A stretch of 64,000 bases of DNA, from NCBI RefSeq assembly GCF_039830145.1, contig NZ_CP156082.1, forward strand, positions 80,001 through 144,000, given 5' to 3'. Both the position numbers and the translations under genes were made by a program. Every line of letters starts with the position of its first letter. Position 1 is the first letter of the stretch. Below the pieces are notes generated by a model. The model ran no database searches. It was not told where the DNA came from and saw only the letters and a list, made by a program, of their open reading frames with translations. This document shows, piece after piece, positions 11,817-48,454 of the stretch. The stretch is from Croceibacterium sp. TMG7-5b_MA50 (lineage in GTDB: Bacteria; Pseudomonadota; Alphaproteobacteria; Sphingomonadales; Sphingomonadaceae).

Positions 11817-12706
11817 CGGGCGACCTCCGGCAGGTGGCGGACCAGCGCGCTGGTGTCCTGCCGCCCGCCTCCCGCCGCCTGCACCCCGGCGTAGAGCTGA
11901 TCCACCAGGGCGGTCACCGGCAACGGCTGCCCCGCCGCGTTCGCGGTGGCGAGCGCGATGGCGAGATCCTTGCGCATCCAGTCGATCGCGAAGCCGAAAT
12001 CGAACTCGCCCGCAGCCATGGTGGTCCAGCGGTTTTCCATCTGCCAGCTCTGCGCCGCGCCGCCGCCGATAGCCTGCAGTACCTTGTCCATCGCCAGTCC
12101 CTGTCCCTGTGCGAAGCGGACCGCTTCCGACAGTCCGGCAAGCGTGCCGGCAATGCAGATCTGGTTTGCCGCCTTGGCGCTCTGCCCAGCACCCGCATCA
12201 CCAATGTGGACGATACGCGCGGCATAGGCCTGCAACACCGTTTCCGCGCGTTCCATGGCTTCCGCCGTGCCGCCGCACATGATCGACAGCTTGCCGTTCT
12301 CCGCGCCTGCCTGTCCGCCGGAAACCGGAGCATCTAGCGCCAGCAGGCCTCGGCCTTCAGCCTCGCTCGCGATGCGTTGCGCGGTGGCCGGGGATACGGT
12401 GGTGTGATCCACGAACAACGCCCCGGGCCGCATGGCCGCCAGGGCTCCTCCGGCGCCGAGCACCACCTCGACCAGGTCGGCATCGTTGCCAACGCAGGTC
12501 AGCACCACATCCGCATTCTGCACAGCCTCCTGCACGGAGGGTGCCGTCGCGACATCGGCATCGGCATGGCGTTCTGCCCAGGCTTGCGCCCGGCTTGCGG
12601 TCCGGTTCCACACAACTACGCGGTGGCCGGCGCGGGCGAGATGCCCCGCCATCGGCGCGCCCATAACACCCAGGCCCAGGAAGGCGATCGCAAGCTGTTC
12701 GGTCAT
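11813..12706 (-). CDS. NAD(P)-dependent beta-hydroxyacid dehydrogenase
   Basis: A 297 aa member of the 3-hydroxyisobutyrate/6-phosphogluconate dehydrogenase family. It has a Rossmann fold with FLGLGVMGAPMAGHLARAGH at residues 7-26, the substrate loop DAPVSGGQAGAENGKLSIMCGG and the catalytic lysine in GAGQSAKAANQI. Possible substrates are tartronate semialdehyde, 3-hydroxyisobutyrate or related acids. The ATG at 12706 (before TEQLAIAFLG) was chosen over an upstream frame extension. It overlaps the amidohydrolase gene by 4 nt and is divergent from ilvA. Confidence 0.87.
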   Translation of the reverse strand: MTEQLAIAFLGLGVMGAPMAGHLARAGHRVVVWNRTASRAQAWAERHADADVATAPSVQEAVQNADVVLTCVGNDADLVEVVLGAGGALAAMRPGALFVDHTTVSPATAQRIASEAEGRGLLALDAPVSGGQAGAENGKLSIMCGGTAEAMERAETVLQAYAARIVHIGDAGAGQSAKAANQICIAGTLAGLSEAVRFAQGQGLAMDKVLQAIGGGAAQSWQMENRWTTMAAGEFDFGFAIDWMRKDLAIALATANAAGQPLPVTALVDQLYAGVQAAGGGRQDTSALVRHLPEVAR

Positions 12707-12796
12707 GATCCCGCCAATGCCGCCTGCGGCCCGGCAAAGCAACGATTGCAGGCGGCCGGTTTGCAGCGCGTCCGAAACGGGCTACGCGCAGGCGCC

Positions 12797-14032
12797 ATGG
12801 ACAGTGCAGACCTGCTCGACGCGACGCTGACGCTTGCTGATGTGGAAGGCGCCGCCGCCCGCATCGCCGGCGCGGTGGTGCGCACGCCCACGCATTACAG
12901 CCGCACCCTGTCGCAGATTACCGGCGCGAACATCTGGCTGAAGTTCGAAAACCACCAGTTCACCGCAGCCTACAAGGAGCGGGGCGCGCTCAACGCCCTG
13001 CTGCAGCTTGATCCGGCAAAGGCGTCGCGCGGTGTGATCACCGCAAGTGCTGGCAACCATGCGCAAGGGCTGTCGTACCACGGCACGCGTTTGGGCGTGC
13101 CGGTTACGATCGTCATGCCGCGCACCACACCGACCGTGAAGATCATGCAGACCGAACAGGTCGGCGGCACGGTGGTGCTGGAAGGTGAGACCTTCGACGA
13201 AGCCAAGGCGCACGCCCACCTGCTGGAAAAGGAACTGGGGCTCACCTTCGTCCACCCGTTCGATCATCCGCACATCGCCGCCGGGCAGGGCACCGTCGCA
13301 CTGGAGATGCTGGCCGATGCGCCGGAGATCGACTGCATCGTCACTCCGATCGGCGGCGGCGGGCTGATCTCTGGCATGGGGACCGTCGCCAAGGCGCAGG
13401 GCCGCCCGATCGAGGTGGTCGGTGTGCAGGCCGAACTCTATCCCTCGATGTATGCCCGCCTGAGGGGCGAAACCATGCCGAGCGGCGGCGACACCCTGGC
13501 GGAAGGCATCGCGGTCAAGGAGCCGGGCGATTTCACCAGCAAGGTGATCGCAGAGGTCGTCGACGACATCCTGCTGGTATCTGAGTCGGACCTGGAACGG
13601 GCGGTCGCGCTGCTGCTGCAGATCGAAAAGACGGTGGTAGAGGGGGCGGGCGCCGCCGGTCTTGCGGCGGTGCTAGCGCATCCCGAACGGTTCGCCGGGC
13701 GCACGCTGGGGCTGGTGCTGTGCGGCGGCAACATCGATACGCGGCTGCTGACCAACGTGCTGCTGCGCGATCTCGCCCGATCCGGCCGGATCGCGCGCCT
13801 CCGCATCACGCTGCAGGACCGGCCGGGCGCGTTGTACAAGGTGATGCGCGAATTCGATGCGCACAACGTCAACATCCTGGAGATCTACCACCAGCGCATC
13901 TTCACCACCCTGCCGGCCAAGGGGCTGATCACCGACATCGAGTGCGAGGCGCGGGATCGTAGCCAGATCGAACGGCTGGTCACGGCACTGGAAGGGCGCG
14001 GCTACTTGGTGGCACCGGTGGAACTCAATTGA
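12797..14032 (+). CDS. ilvA: threonine ammonia-lyase
   Basis: PLP enzyme deaminating threonine to 2-oxobutyrate, feeding isoleucine synthesis. The 411 aa protein has a fold type II catalytic domain (about 1-325) with the PLP lysine in QFTAAYKERGALNALL, the SAGNHAQGLSYHG loop and a glycine-rich TPIGGGGLISG phosphate loop, followed by a C-terminal ACT domain (about 330-410, LRITLQDRPGALYKVM) of the short TdcB-with-ACT type. The start codon precedes DSADLLDATL; the gene is divergent from the dehydrogenase. Confidence 0.93.
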   Translation: MDSADLLDATLTLADVEGAAARIAGAVVRTPTHYSRTLSQITGANIWLKFENHQFTAAYKERGALNALLQLDPAKASRGVITASAGNHAQGLSYHGTRLGVPVTIVMPRTTPTVKIMQTEQVGGTVVLEGETFDEAKAHAHLLEKELGLTFVHPFDHPHIAAGQGTVALEMLADAPEIDCIVTPIGGGGLISGMGTVAKAQGRPIEVVGVQAELYPSMYARLRGETMPSGGDTLAEGIAVKEPGDFTSKVIAEVVDDILLVSESDLERAVALLLQIEKTVVEGAGAAGLAAVLAHPERFAGRTLGLVLCGGNIDTRLLTNVLLRDLARSGRIARLRITLQDRPGALYKVMREFDAHNVNILEIYHQRIFTTLPAKGLITDIECEARDRSQIERLVTALEGRGYLVAPVELN

Positions 14033-43269: not shown

Positions 43270-44366
43270 GCACTCACGCGGCGCACCACGTCCTCCCTGA
43301 GGTTCCGCCAGAACAGCGGTATGTCGTAGACGTGGTAATTGTTGCCCGGCAGCACGTATGGGCCAAGCTCCGGCGGATCGCCGATCAGCAGGATGCCGCT
43401 GGCATCGCACCGCGCGGGGACTGCGCCCGCCACCAGCGCGCCATCGGCCAGCGACTCCTCCGGCACCAGCGTGCCCAGATTGGCGGTCGCCGGCGCCTCG
43501 CCGCCGACCTGCCCGGTGAGCGGGTTGCTGCACAAGATCGGGCTGTCGCCGCGCGGCTCCCCGTCATAGCCGGGGCTGGCGGCATAGGTGCGCAGCAGGT
43601 CGCCAGGGTCAGCCGGCTCGGCGAAGCTCGACCAGCTGACGATGCAGCCGGCATCGCCCGGCCCAGCGCAGGCTGGCAGCGGCAGCGCCGGCAGGTCATG
43701 CGCGACGGAGATCGGCCAGCCGATCGCGTAGACCGCCGCGATGCGATCGGCGGCCGGTGTGCCCGCCACCTCTTCCCGCAGCAGGCGCAGCAGGTGCAGC
43801 GCGCCCTGGCTGTGGCCCGCCAGCACGATCGGCCGGTTCGGGTCGGCCTCTGCCAGGAACACGGCGAAGGCCTGCGCCACGTCGGCATATGCGGCGTCGA
43901 TCGCGCGCTGTCCATCGGGCGCATCGGTCAGGAACGCGCCGAAGGTCGCCTGCCGGTACTTGGGGGCCCACAGTTCCGCCGCGCGGTTGAAGGGACTGGC
44001 AAGGCCGCGCACGAAGGTCCGCGCGCGGGTCTGGCTCTGTGCGTCATCCAGGGCTGCGTTCCAGCTCGTCCGTTCCAGGAAGCTGGTCGGGTGGACGAAG
44101 AACACGGCGAAGGGCAGGTCCTCTTCCTGCGGAACCCCGGCGGGCAGCCACCGTGCCGGGTCCGTGTCGCGCCGGATGCCGGGGCGCGCCAGCCACATGG
44201 TGGGATCGGTGTAGGCTGTCCGGGCGAGCGGTGCCTGCGCCTGGAAGCCGTCGGTGGGGATGAAGGCGACCCGCGCCAGATCGCTGCCCCAGATCCGCAG
44301 GGCGAACAGCACGCCGGCCCCCAGCACGATGATCCCGGCCATGACATACAGGAACTTACGCGCCAC
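43254..44366 (-). CDS. DUF3089 alpha/beta-hydrolase
   Basis: A 370 aa protein with an N-terminal membrane anchor or uncleaved signal (about 5-25) and a DUF3089 lipase-like domain. The nucleophile elbow is IVLAGHSQGALHLL, and PFAVFFVHPTSFLERTSWN near residue 90 is typical of this family. The substrate is unknown. The GTG start at 44366 has a GGAG site 6-10 nt upstream and overlaps the transporter gene by 11 nt; an ATG eight codons later is an alternative. Confidence 0.85.
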   Translation of the reverse strand: MARKFLYVMAGIIVLGAGVLFALRIWGSDLARVAFIPTDGFQAQAPLARTAYTDPTMWLARPGIRRDTDPARWLPAGVPQEEDLPFAVFFVHPTSFLERTSWNAALDDAQSQTRARTFVRGLASPFNRAAELWAPKYRQATFGAFLTDAPDGQRAIDAAYADVAQAFAVFLAEADPNRPIVLAGHSQGALHLLRLLREEVAGTPAADRIAAVYAIGWPISVAHDLPALPLPACAGPGDAGCIVSWSSFAEPADPGDLLRTYAASPGYDGEPRGDSPILCSNPLTGQVGGEAPATANLGTLVPEESLADGALVAGAVPARCDASGILLIGDPPELGPYVLPGNNYHVYDIPLFWRNLREDVVRRVSAWQTR

Positions 44367-45483
44367 CCGGCAACTCCGTCGTGCCCGCCATGCGCGCCTG
44401 CAACCGTTCGCTGCGGCGTTCCAGCGCGACCTTGATCATCGCCATCAGCGGATCGGCCAGAAACAGGCCCAGGATGCCGAACAGGATTCCCATCACCAGC
44501 TGCGCCGCCAGCACCAGCGCGGGCGCGAGGTCGACCGTCTTGCGGGCGATCACCGGCACCACGACATAGCCGTCGAACACCTGCACGACGACGTAGACCG
44601 CGATGGTGTACAGCCCCATGTCGACCCCGCCGGAAAAGCCGACCAGCACCATCAGCAGGCCGGACACGATTGCGCCGACATTGGGCAGGAACGCCAGCAG
44701 ACCCGTCAGGATGCCCAGCAACGCCGCCATCGGCACGCCCCAGAAGGCGAGCAGCGCGTAGGTCAGCACTCCTTCGAACACCATGCCGATCAGCCGCCCG
44801 GCCAGCAGCCGGCGCATGGTGGTGGCCATGCGTACCATGGTGACGTGGAAGTCGCCGCGCTGCTCCGCCGGCAGCATCCAGCCCAGCCCGCGTTCGTACA
44901 GGCGCGGCTCCAGCGCGACATACAGGCCGATGATCAGGATCAGGAACAGGGTGGTGAGCCCGCCCACGAACCCGCCTATGTAGCGGGTGACGAGGCTCAC
45001 CCCGTTCATCAGCTGGCCGGCCATGTTCTGCACAGTCGACAGGTCGATGGCGACTCCCCGGTTCTGCAACCAGGCCAGGGTGCGGATACCCTGCTGCTGC
45101 ACCAGCGTCGGTAGCTGCGCCGCCTCCTGCGAGATCTGCGATCCGGTGAAGTAGAACAGCCAGGTGAAGAACGCGATCGACAGCAGCAGGACGATCAGGA
45201 TGCGCAGGGTACGGCCGACCGGCAGCACCCGGCCCAGCAGGCGCGCCCCGCCATCGATCAGTGCGGCGAAGACCAGCCCACCGAATATCACCAGGATCGA
45301 TTGGGAAATATAGACGAACAGCACCGCCAGCCCGACCACCACGACCCAGGCGATCGCCCGTTGCACCTCCAGCCGGATGGCCGGGTTCAGGATGCGGGCC
45401 GGGCTGGGGCGCTGATCAGGATCGCTGTCGGGCCCGGTGTCGATGTTGTCGGTCACGGCAGCGCGACGCGCAGGTGACCCCAT
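44356..45483 (-). CDS. AI-2E (PerM) family transporter
   Basis: A 375 aa membrane protein with about eight helices of the AI-2E/PerM family (named for AI-2 export; many members are sodium/proton antiporters or of unknown role). Typical segments are AFLPNVGAIVSGLLMVLVGF and KTVDLAPALVLAAQLVMGIL in the last helices. The start could be ATG 45483 or GTG 45456. It lies 13 nt after the acpS-lepB frame and overlaps the DUF3089 gene by 11 nt. Confidence 0.87.
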   Translation of the reverse strand: MGSPARRAAVTDNIDTGPDSDPDQRPSPARILNPAIRLEVQRAIAWVVVVGLAVLFVYISQSILVIFGGLVFAALIDGGARLLGRVLPVGRTLRILIVLLLSIAFFTWLFYFTGSQISQEAAQLPTLVQQQGIRTLAWLQNRGVAIDLSTVQNMAGQLMNGVSLVTRYIGGFVGGLTTLFLILIIGLYVALEPRLYERGLGWMLPAEQRGDFHVTMVRMATTMRRLLAGRLIGMVFEGVLTYALLAFWGVPMAALLGILTGLLAFLPNVGAIVSGLLMVLVGFSGGVDMGLYTIAVYVVVQVFDGYVVVPVIARKTVDLAPALVLAAQLVMGILFGILGLFLADPLMAMIKVALERRSERLQARMAGTTELPGGA

Positions 45484-45496
45484 CGTTCCCACGCCG

Positions 45497-46786
45497 TCAC
45501 GGCGCGTCGCGTTCCGGCCTGAGGGAGGCGAGCGCCCGCCCATCGCGCAGGGCGGCCGGCCATGTCAGCGGGTTCCAGCTTTCGCTGCCGTCGAGGGAGA
45601 AGGTCACGATCTCCGCCCGACCACCGACATCGGCGATCGGCACCGGTCCGCCCAGCCCGTTGCCGAACGGCGCGGCATCGGCACGGCTGTCCGCCGAATG
45701 ATCGCGATTGTCGCCCATCAGGAACACATGATCCGCTGGCACCGTGATCTCCGGCCGGTTGTCCAGCCAGCCGTCGGGATTGTCGTCGAGCACCAGGTAA
45801 CTGGCCCCGTTGGGCAGCGTCTCGCGGTAGGTCGGCGGCTCATATACCTGCCGTCCGTCGGACAGCGTCTGGCGATACCGCTCGAACGGGGCGAGGCACG
45901 GCGTCCCCTCGCATAGCTGCGCATCGGCCACCGGGATGCGCGCGGGCGGGACCATCTCCTGCGGCACCACCTCCCCGTTCAGGATGATCCGCCCGTCGGC
46001 CACCGCGATCCGGTCGCCGGGCAGGGCGACGACCCGCTTGATGTAATCCTCGTTGCTGCCGGGCGGGACGACGATCACGATGTCGCCATATTGCGGCGTC
46101 GCCGGCATGATCCGGGTGGCGGAGCGCGGCAGCAGGTGAAAGCTCGCCGACACCCAGCTCCAGCCATAAGGATACTTGCTGACGATCAGCCGGTCGCCGA
46201 CCTGCAGGTTGGGCAGCATGGAGATGGACGGGATGTAGAACGGCTTCGCCACCAGGCTGTGGAACGCCAGCACCGCCAGCAGCATCAGCGCAAGTCCGCG
46301 CAGTTCCGCCAGCCAGTTGATGCGCGCCTTCGCAGTCTGGGCGGGCGGGTCGGTGACAGGCGGGACCATGCTGTCAGTCGGGGCGGAGCTCATGCGGGCT
46401 TCCAGGATCACGAAGGCTTGCGCCCATGGATGATCGTCGGTGAGGGTGAGATGAACATGCACGACGTGGCCGGTCGGCGTCAGTTCCGCCAGCCGCGCGG
46501 CGGCACCGCCGGTCAGGGCCAGAGTGGGCGCGCCGCCGGGCAGGTTCACGACGCCGATGTCCTTCATCCACACGCCGCGATAGAAGCCGGTGCCCACCGC
46601 CTTGCTGAAGGCCTCCTTGGCCGCGAACCGCTTCGCGTAGGTGCCGGCGCGGGTGTAGGGGCGCCGGGCGGCCTTGGCGCGTTCCACATCGGTGAAGCAG
46701 CGCTGCTCGAACCGATCGCCATGCCGGTCGAGCGCGGCCTGGATGCGCTCGATATTGCACAGGTCGGAACCAAGGCCGATGATCAC
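45497..46786 (-). CDS. fused holo-ACP synthase / signal peptidase I
   Basis: One uninterrupted 429 aa frame. Residues 1-131 are a full AcpS ([12 protein letters not shown] with metal ligand D8; [15 protein letters not shown] with E58), which adds phosphopantetheine to acyl-carrier protein. Residues about 160-429 are a full type I signal peptidase: membrane helix 161-178, nucleophile S189 in [10 protein letters not shown], general base K250 in [13 protein letters not shown], and box E in [12 protein letters not shown]. No stop separates them. An internal ATG (residue 132, base 46393) with a GGAAG site 5 nt upstream could also start lepB alone (298 aa). In the fusion the AcpS part would stay cytoplasmic, which fits LepB topology. 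Confidence 0.9.
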
Positions 46787-46943: not shown

Positions 46944-47684
46944 TCATCGCGCATCGTCCATCAGCTCGCGCATCTGCCTGACGGCCTGCTCCAGCCCCAC
47001 GAACACCGCCTCGCCGACAAGGTAGTGGCCAATGTTCAGCTCGGCGAGCTGCGGGATGGCGGCGATCGGCTGGACATTGTCGTAGGTCAGGCCGTGGCCC
47101 GCATGCGGCTCGATACCGTTCTTGGCGGCAAGCGCGGCCATGTCCGCCACCCGCCGCAGCTCGGCGGGCAGGGTGTCGGGGCCGGCGTGGGCATATTCGC
47201 CGGTATGGAACTCCACCACCGGTGCGGAAAGCCGCATGGCGGCTTCCAGCTGGCGTTCCTCCGGCGCGATGAACAGGCTGACGCGGATACCGGCATCCAG
47301 CAGCCGGCCGACGATCGGCGCCAGCCGGTTGTGCTGCCCGGCGGCATCGAGGCCACCTTCCGTCGTGCGCTCCTCCCGCCGTTCCGGCACCAGGCAGGCG
47401 GCATGGGGCCGATGGGCGAGGGCGATGGCGACCATCTCCTCCGTCGCGGCCATCTCCAGGTTCAGCGGCAGGTCGGTCGCATCCTGGATGCGACGCAGGT
47501 CGTCGTCGCGGATATGGCGGCGATCTTCCCGCAGATGCGCGGTGATGCCGTCGCCGCCCACGCGGGCGACGATTTCCGCCGCGCGGACCGGATCGGGGTG
47601 GGCGCCGCCACGGGCGTTGCGGATGGTGGCGACGTGGTCGATGTTGACCCCCAGCCGCAGCCGCCCGGCGCCGCCCGGTGCCAT
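46944..47684 (-). CDS. pdxJ: pyridoxine 5'-phosphate synthase
   Basis: Ring-closing enzyme of vitamin B6 synthesis joining 1-deoxyxylulose 5-phosphate and 3-amino-1-phosphohydroxyacetone phosphate. The 246 aa TIM barrel opens [18 protein letters not shown], with [11 protein letters not shown], catalytic E/H segments ([22 protein letters not shown]) and the C-terminal [16 protein letters not shown] phosphate site. It shares one base with the stop of pyrE, and acpS-lepB follows after 157 nt containing repeat copy B. Confidence 0.96.
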
Positions 47685-48262
47685 CAGGCGCGGCTGCCCG
47701 GCTTGGTGACGGGCTTGGCCGCCAGTTCGGGCGGCAGCTCTTCGGGGGCGTAGGTCGGGAAGTTGATCTCCACCAACGGGTAGAACGGCACGCCCAGGTC
47801 CACGGTGCCGCCCGACCGGTCGACCAGCGCGACCTCCGCCAGGACCTCGCCGCCTGCGGCAACGACCGCCTTCATCGCCTCCCGGCTGCTGAGGCCGGTG
47901 GTGACCACATCCTCCACCATCAGCACCCGCGCCCCCGGGTCGATGGTGAAGCCGCGGCGCAGTTCGAATGTGCCTTCCGGCCGCTCCAGGAAGATCGCGT
48001 CACGTTCCAGCGTGCGGCCGACCTCGTGCCCGATGATGAGCCCGCCCATTGCGGGGGAGACGACCACGTCGATCCGCGCCCGCAGGTCGCGCGGCAGCTT
48101 CTGCACCAGTGCCCGGGCCAGCCGGCCGGCACGGTCCGCGTTCATCAGCACGCGGGCGCATTGCAGGTACCAGGCGCTGTGACGGCCACTCGACAGGCGG
48201 AAGTGCCCCTCCAGCAAGGCGTGGCTGGCGCGGAATTCGGCAAGCACCTCGTCATCGGTCAT
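47684..48262 (-). CDS. pyrE: orotate phosphoribosyltransferase
   Basis: Makes OMP from orotate and PRPP in pyrimidine synthesis. The 192 aa protein opens [20 protein letters not shown] with the [15 protein letters not shown] segment, and has the PRPP-binding signature [18 protein letters not shown]. The ATG at 48262 fits the family; an ATG six codons upstream is possible. pdxJ overlaps by one base. Divergent from coxB across 192 nt that must hold both promoters. Confidence 0.95.
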
Positions 48263-48454
48263 GGTCGGCAACCTGTCCCCCATCAGCCGCGCCCGCAGGT
48301 ATGCGAAGGCGTGAAGCGCCACCCGTAGAAGCGCTTGGCACAGGGGGCAAGCGGGCGCAGCACCCGTCGGCGGCACAGTGCACAGGGCCGTTGCCTTCGC
48401 TGCGGATTGCTGCCAGTTTGCAACGATTAGTTGGCGTTATTACAGACCGGCGGG

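Follow-up and report, generated by a model that had tools for sequence, protein, structure and literature searches.

We find that acpS (holo-ACP synthase) and lepB (signal peptidase I), usually two separate genes, are joined in Croceibacterium sp. TMG7-5b_MA50 into one true in-frame fusion in the assembly as given. The window we analyzed is a stretch of 64,000 nucleotides (positions 80001–144000 of a 3,040,982-base contig), for which a sequence-only reading had claimed that the two genes share a single uninterrupted frame. This claim is confirmed: the frame continues for 429 codons without a stop (Table 1). The evidence for the fusion comes from the sequence of one genome, and we consider it most likely, with some reserve, that a recent 5-base deletion gave rise to a fused 429-residue product and that the change was tolerated as near-neutral rather than selected as a coupling.

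Extent and parts of the fused frame

The joined frame is not a product of chance, because neither gene is truncated and both are conserved, and because a single 5-nt deletion turns the C. mercuriale junction into that of the window. G+C by codon position is coding-like in both halves of the frame. The AcpS half scores above the curated cut-offs of PF01648 (51.1 bits vs 25) and TIGR00516 (72.7 bits vs 59.8), the latter being typed as an equivalog_domain, which allows for a domain inside a larger protein. Likewise, the LepB half exceeds the curated cut-offs of PF10502 (124 bits vs 22.9) and TIGR02227 (121.7 bits vs 47), and the signal peptidase I match covers residues 165–398 of the fusion. Since the AcpS half can be aligned up to residue 129 of 129 of the solved chain 3qmn_A, its end is not missing. 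Its C-terminus is not free as it is in relatives; with no stop, it runs on into LepB. A free end is usual for AcpS but does not belong to the definition of the family.

Table 1. Coordinates of the fused frame, its parts and its neighbors in the window, and of the second signal peptidase I gene with the genes that follow it at locus L002.
Feature	Position	Strand	Details and basis
Fused acpS-lepB open frame	45497..46786	−	GTG start at 46786, TGA stop at 45499-45497; 429 aa
AcpS domain, residues 1-131	46394..46786	−	Family matches; D8/E58/K62 present; alignment to 3qmn_A
5-nt deletion site, between residue 131 and the old lepB start codon	46393..46394	−	CCCCG in C. mercuriale; junction comparison
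In-frame ATG, residue 132	46391..46393	−	Aligns with the ATG that starts lepB within the ATGA overlap of genus relatives
GGAAG, weak Shine-Dalgarno-like stretch	46399..46403	−	Doubles as coding for part of AcpS Leu-Glu-Ala
Linker, residues 132-157	46316..46393	−	Residues 136-153 at pLDDT <50
Single membrane helix, residues 158-179	46250..46315	−	Predicted; top 19-residue hydropathy 2.0 at 162-180
Signal peptidase I catalytic part, residues 180-429	45500..46249	−	S189, K250, box E (GDNRDHS, 358-364) and family matches
pdxJ, upstream neighbor	46944..47684	−	Family match
Phosphoribosyltransferase, upstream, taken as pyrE	47684..48376	−	Family match
AI-2E family transporter, downstream neighbor	44356..45543	−	Family match
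Second signal peptidase I	L002:1453-2322	+	PF10502 match
rnc (ribonuclease III), start overlapped by the second lepB	L002:2259-2990	+	Pfam
Era-like frame after rnc	L002:2987-3817	+	Judged by eye

All of the residues that had been named from the letters of the sequence (D8, E58, S189, K250 and box E) were found; D8 and E58 in the AcpS half and S189 and K250 in the LepB half are unchanged across 21 aligned rows. We assume the usual catalytic roles for D8, E58 and K62 of the AcpS half and for S189, K250 and box E of the LepB half. On this footing the active-site motifs are intact and both halves look functional. Among the neighbors, the phosphoribosyltransferase is presumably pyrE, a name we gave it from the gene's place. 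The longest reading frame of the AI-2E transporter overlaps the end of lepB by 47 nt, and the real start of this gene is likely later than that of its longest frame.

PF01648, described as the phosphopantetheinyl transferase superfamily, has one match in the genome at an E-value threshold of 0.001, the fused AcpS. No second ACPS domain was found genome-wide at this threshold, below which a very divergent phosphopantetheinyl transferase could fall. PF10502 has two matches, the fused LepB and a paralogue 42% identical to it, which lies away from acpS in the order lepB-rnc-era. AcpS is the fusion partner without a detected spare copy, and LepB alone keeps its own start codon. The paralogue next to rnc and era probably carries general signal-peptide processing as well. 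With a single ACPS/Sfp-type domain found, one phosphopantetheinyl transferase may serve all the carrier proteins of the cell. Gene neighborhoods of era are the subject of a paper whose accessible text mentions acpS with lepB (PMC10582724).

The junction in relatives and its probable origin

The view that acpS and lepB are normally separate neighbors, also put forward in the sequence-only reading, holds at all other loci examined. Four other genomes of the genus (L003, L004, L007 and L008) keep acpS and lepB as two separate genes, whose stop and start codons overlap in a 4-nt ATGA. At these loci, as at L070 (C. mercuriale), L079 (C. ferulae), L093, L096 and L109 (C. soli), AcpS is 133 residues long and ends in a TGA that shares bases with the lepB ATG; several of the named loci come from the same genomes as L003, L004, L007 and L008. 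C. xixiisoli (L104) has the ATGA overlap with an AcpS of 134 residues, and in C. selenioxidans (L102) the overlap reads GTGA rather than ATGA.

The window junction is that of C. mercuriale minus CCCCG directly before the ATG, a loss with one possible placement, and the flanks of the missing block are identical to C. mercuriale over 15 bases before it and 14 after. Because five is 2 mod 3, the loss shifts the ATG into the acpS frame and the TGA out of it. Judging from the relatives, a recent five-base deletion probably struck right before the ATGA overlap of an ordinary acpS-lepB pair. It would have taken the stop from AcpS and brought lepB into frame with acpS, with the old LepB start becoming residue 132.

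We compared the junction across related Sphingomonadales and found genus relatives with overlapping but separate genes and no second case of the fusion. With the window's own left out, the 140 loci fetched, which were selected for their likeness to the fused protein, include 119 that are distinct at the junction. Besides the window, 0/119 carry a fused acpS-lepB, while the two genes are same-strand neighbors in all 119. At 78 of them the genes share a frame but are parted by a stop, a proportion that is inflated because the ranking of many loci went by single long matches; a further 32 have a 4-nt overlap (19 ATGA, 9 GTGA and 4 TTGA) and nine have another arrangement. We rejected a conserved Sphingomonadales fusion family because none of the 119 loci is fused and the same-frame loci keep their stop between the genes.

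Many Sphingomonas relatives (L069, L072–L074, L077, L081 and others) have acpS and lepB in the same frame with one TGA between them and a TTG or GTG codon right after it. Readthrough of this one stop would yield an equal fusion at these loci.

Whole-genome searches with the fused protein were made in overlapping samples, each of which counts the window's genome. They gave matches in 58 of 59 near genomes, in 385 of 397 genomes of the family (E 1e-60), in 212 of 296 of the order (E 1e-59), in 37 of 385 of the class (E 1e-50) and in 26 of 398 of the phylum (E 1e-50). Among the matches listed for the near genomes, the family and the order, none other than the window is full length and free of stops. 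Nor did the class and phylum samples hold another such match at E 1e-50, a threshold below which a fusion of distant sequence would fall. The fusion looks like a recent one-off accident and not like a conserved system.

Pairwise dN/dS, which spans mostly pre-fusion time and cannot date the fusion, is 0.17 for AcpS and 0.16 for LepB between the window and C. mercuriale, 0.15 for both between the window and C. ferulae, and 0.16 (AcpS) and 0.13 (LepB) between C. mercuriale and C. ferulae. Against the more distant L093, values are 0.25–0.37 for the window and its relatives alike. AcpS identity is even among the window, C. mercuriale and C. ferulae (116, 116 and 117 of 130). For LepB, the window is identical to C. 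mercuriale at 234/272 positions and to C. ferulae at 233/271, and those two are identical to each other at 252/271. The extra divergence of the window LepB would fit either a lineage that branches outside the other two species or faster evolution since the fusion.

Predicted translation and membrane placement of the product

Ribosomes that start at the acpS GTG would have to read on, making one 429-residue protein. It is predicted to consist, in order, of an AcpS in the cytoplasm, about 25 residues of flexible linker, a single membrane helix and a signal-peptidase domain outside the inner membrane. AcpS enzymes are trimers with shared active sites and are normally soluble, and signal peptidase I has an N-terminal membrane helix and a catalytic domain outside the inner membrane. 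Our single-chain model of the fusion is of middling quality (mean pLDDT 74.4, pTM 0.54). In it the AcpS half is folded, with pLDDT of 73–92 per ten-residue block up to residue 130, most of the linker is disordered, and a membrane helix follows (Table 1); the LepB half is less certain, with residues 179–187 and 200–226 at pLDDT <50. Given the usual orientation of LepB, the modelled linker permits a cytoplasmic AcpS together with a LepB across the membrane. With this as the only ACPS domain found in the genome, acyl carrier protein would be activated either by a membrane-tethered AcpS or by an AcpS later cut off the linker.

The sequence-only reading had also pointed to the in-frame ATG at 46393, with GGAAG ending 5 nt before it, and had proposed that the locus could make a fusion, a free LepB or both. 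The ATG and the GGAAG are both present and both products are conceivable with the ATG in frame, but the GGAAG consists of Leu-Glu-Ala codons of AcpS, and it recurs in C. mercuriale and C. ferulae, where it lies farther from the start. Computed pairing before the ATG with the 16S tail is weak at −3.8 kcal/mol; the lepB genes of five relatives give −3.6 to −5.9 kcal/mol and the acpS start gives −7.2. On these grounds (weak pairing, AcpS codons, presence in relatives), we rejected the view that the GGAAG serves as a strong, dedicated ribosome site. Now that the stop from which ribosomes would pass on to the ATG is missing, free LepB would probably be minor; it is possible, not assured. Because AcpS has no separate stop, free AcpS needs cleavage, and no AcpS paralogue was detected.

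We infer that lepB in the relatives would depend on ribosomes ending at the acpS stop. In the accessible part of a study of E. coli genes that overlap by 4 nt, four of five pairs were coupled, three of them strongly, and bioF (fully) and menH (nearly 40%) were initiated without coupling (PMC6728339). By analogy with bioF and menH, free LepB could be made in quantity.

While it is possible that the sole holo-ACP synthase is a permanent membrane protein through LepB, with all ACP activated at the membrane surface, we put this forward tentatively and give it somewhat less than even weight. Another reading is that the frame is indeed joined but that the linker is cut soon after synthesis, which frees AcpS, and that LepB is also started at 46393, so that the fusion is short-lived. 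Quick cleavage would suit the predicted disorder of residues 136–153, and it would suit the finding of a sole ACPS domain, since a poorly working fusion would favor release; separate products would suit the old lepB ATG, kept in frame behind its GGAAG. Against a free LepB start stands the weakness of this ribosome site, and we regard this short-lived fusion as unlikely.

It is also conceivable that the joined frame stems from a mistake in sequencing or assembly, or from a mutation found only in the sequenced culture, with acpS and lepB separate in the living strain. Adding a net two bases (mod 3) ahead of the ATG would bring the ATGA overlap back, and a gain of one would give acpS a TGA after six further codons. 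The missing block does sit in a C-rich stretch of the relatives, but a 5-base loss relative to C. mercuriale between identical flanks is unlike a single-base homopolymer slip. The comparison set has one genome per species and one strain of the source; this genome is in two contigs and is 100% complete. A frameshift test of a 464-kb stretch, in which 298 ORFs (104,097 codons) have a counterpart in 1.99 Mb of C. mercuriale, flagged 6 of these as frameshift-like, and the reverse test flagged 5 of 276, the fused locus included each time. That a few other genes were flagged as well would agree with an error, yet the outcome does not point to an assembly full of frameshifts. It supersedes a smaller one on 400 kb of C. 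mercuriale, which flagged 3 of 87 ORFs and, in reverse, 2 of 83. One of the five other flagged ORFs was inspected in the forward test and one of four in the reverse; both look like upstream ORF extensions, the reverse one judged by eye. Sequence error is an unlikely cause of the joined frame, and we consider it quite improbable that the living strain has separate genes.

Flagged ORFs of 551 and 906 aa were rejected as further fusions because their other-frame parts look like upstream extensions. The 551-codon ORF (window 12377–14032, plus strand) has a PALP (threonine-dehydratase-like) domain from residue 165 on; the part before it matches no family, and the C. mercuriale counterpart of that part is read in another frame.

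The proposal, made from the sequence alone, that the fusion is a selected device tying ACP activation, and hence lipid synthesis, to protein export at the inner membrane is very improbable: both domains look functional and the genes are neighbors at every locus picked by likeness to the fused protein, but no second genome with the fusion appeared among the matches listed, hence the proposal has no comparative support, one deletion suffices as an explanation, and no work on a link of this kind was found in the accessible literature.

Known relatives of the two halves and what the fusion means

We return to the reading we favor, a tolerated recent fusion. The ordinary Sphingomonadales pair, as in C. 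mercuriale and C. ferulae, has the same genes in the same order and on the same strand as the window; there, AcpS ends after residue 133 at a TGA overlapping the lepB ATG, whereas the fusion has no stop. Stand-alone bacterial AcpS (TIGR00516; PDB 3qmn, 5vbx) resembles the fusion over its full length to the last strand, catalytic residues included, and to this the fusion adds 298 residues with a predicted membrane helix. With signal peptidase I (TIGR02227; PDB 1t7d, 1b12) the fusion shares the Ser/Lys pair and box E, and a membrane helix is predicted ahead of them, but where that enzyme has a short N-terminal tail, the fusion has a whole enzyme. Fungal fatty acid synthase (PDB 4v58) also carries a phosphopantetheinyl transferase, an ACPS-fold domain, within a larger protein, although the match is weak (E 6.9e-06) and lies close to the end of a chain of 1878 residues. 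This domain is fused to the synthase that it serves; unlike the window fusion, 4v58 has no membrane anchor or protease. No description of an AcpS-LepB fusion was found in the accessible open-licence literature. The parts are ordinary and their combination was not found in that literature; it is a natural two-gene fusion, not a system.

Should the joined frame be an error, or its product be quickly cleaved, it would be a mere curiosity. Otherwise, the locus neatly illustrates how one small deletion can turn an ATGA overlap into a gene fusion, and it offers a cheap test of whether a downstream gene can do without translational coupling. If the fused product is real, a normally soluble AcpS with no detected paralogue works while tied to a membrane protease. 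If permanent tethering is true, it would be a natural experiment in which AcpS needs neither a free C-terminus nor free diffusion.
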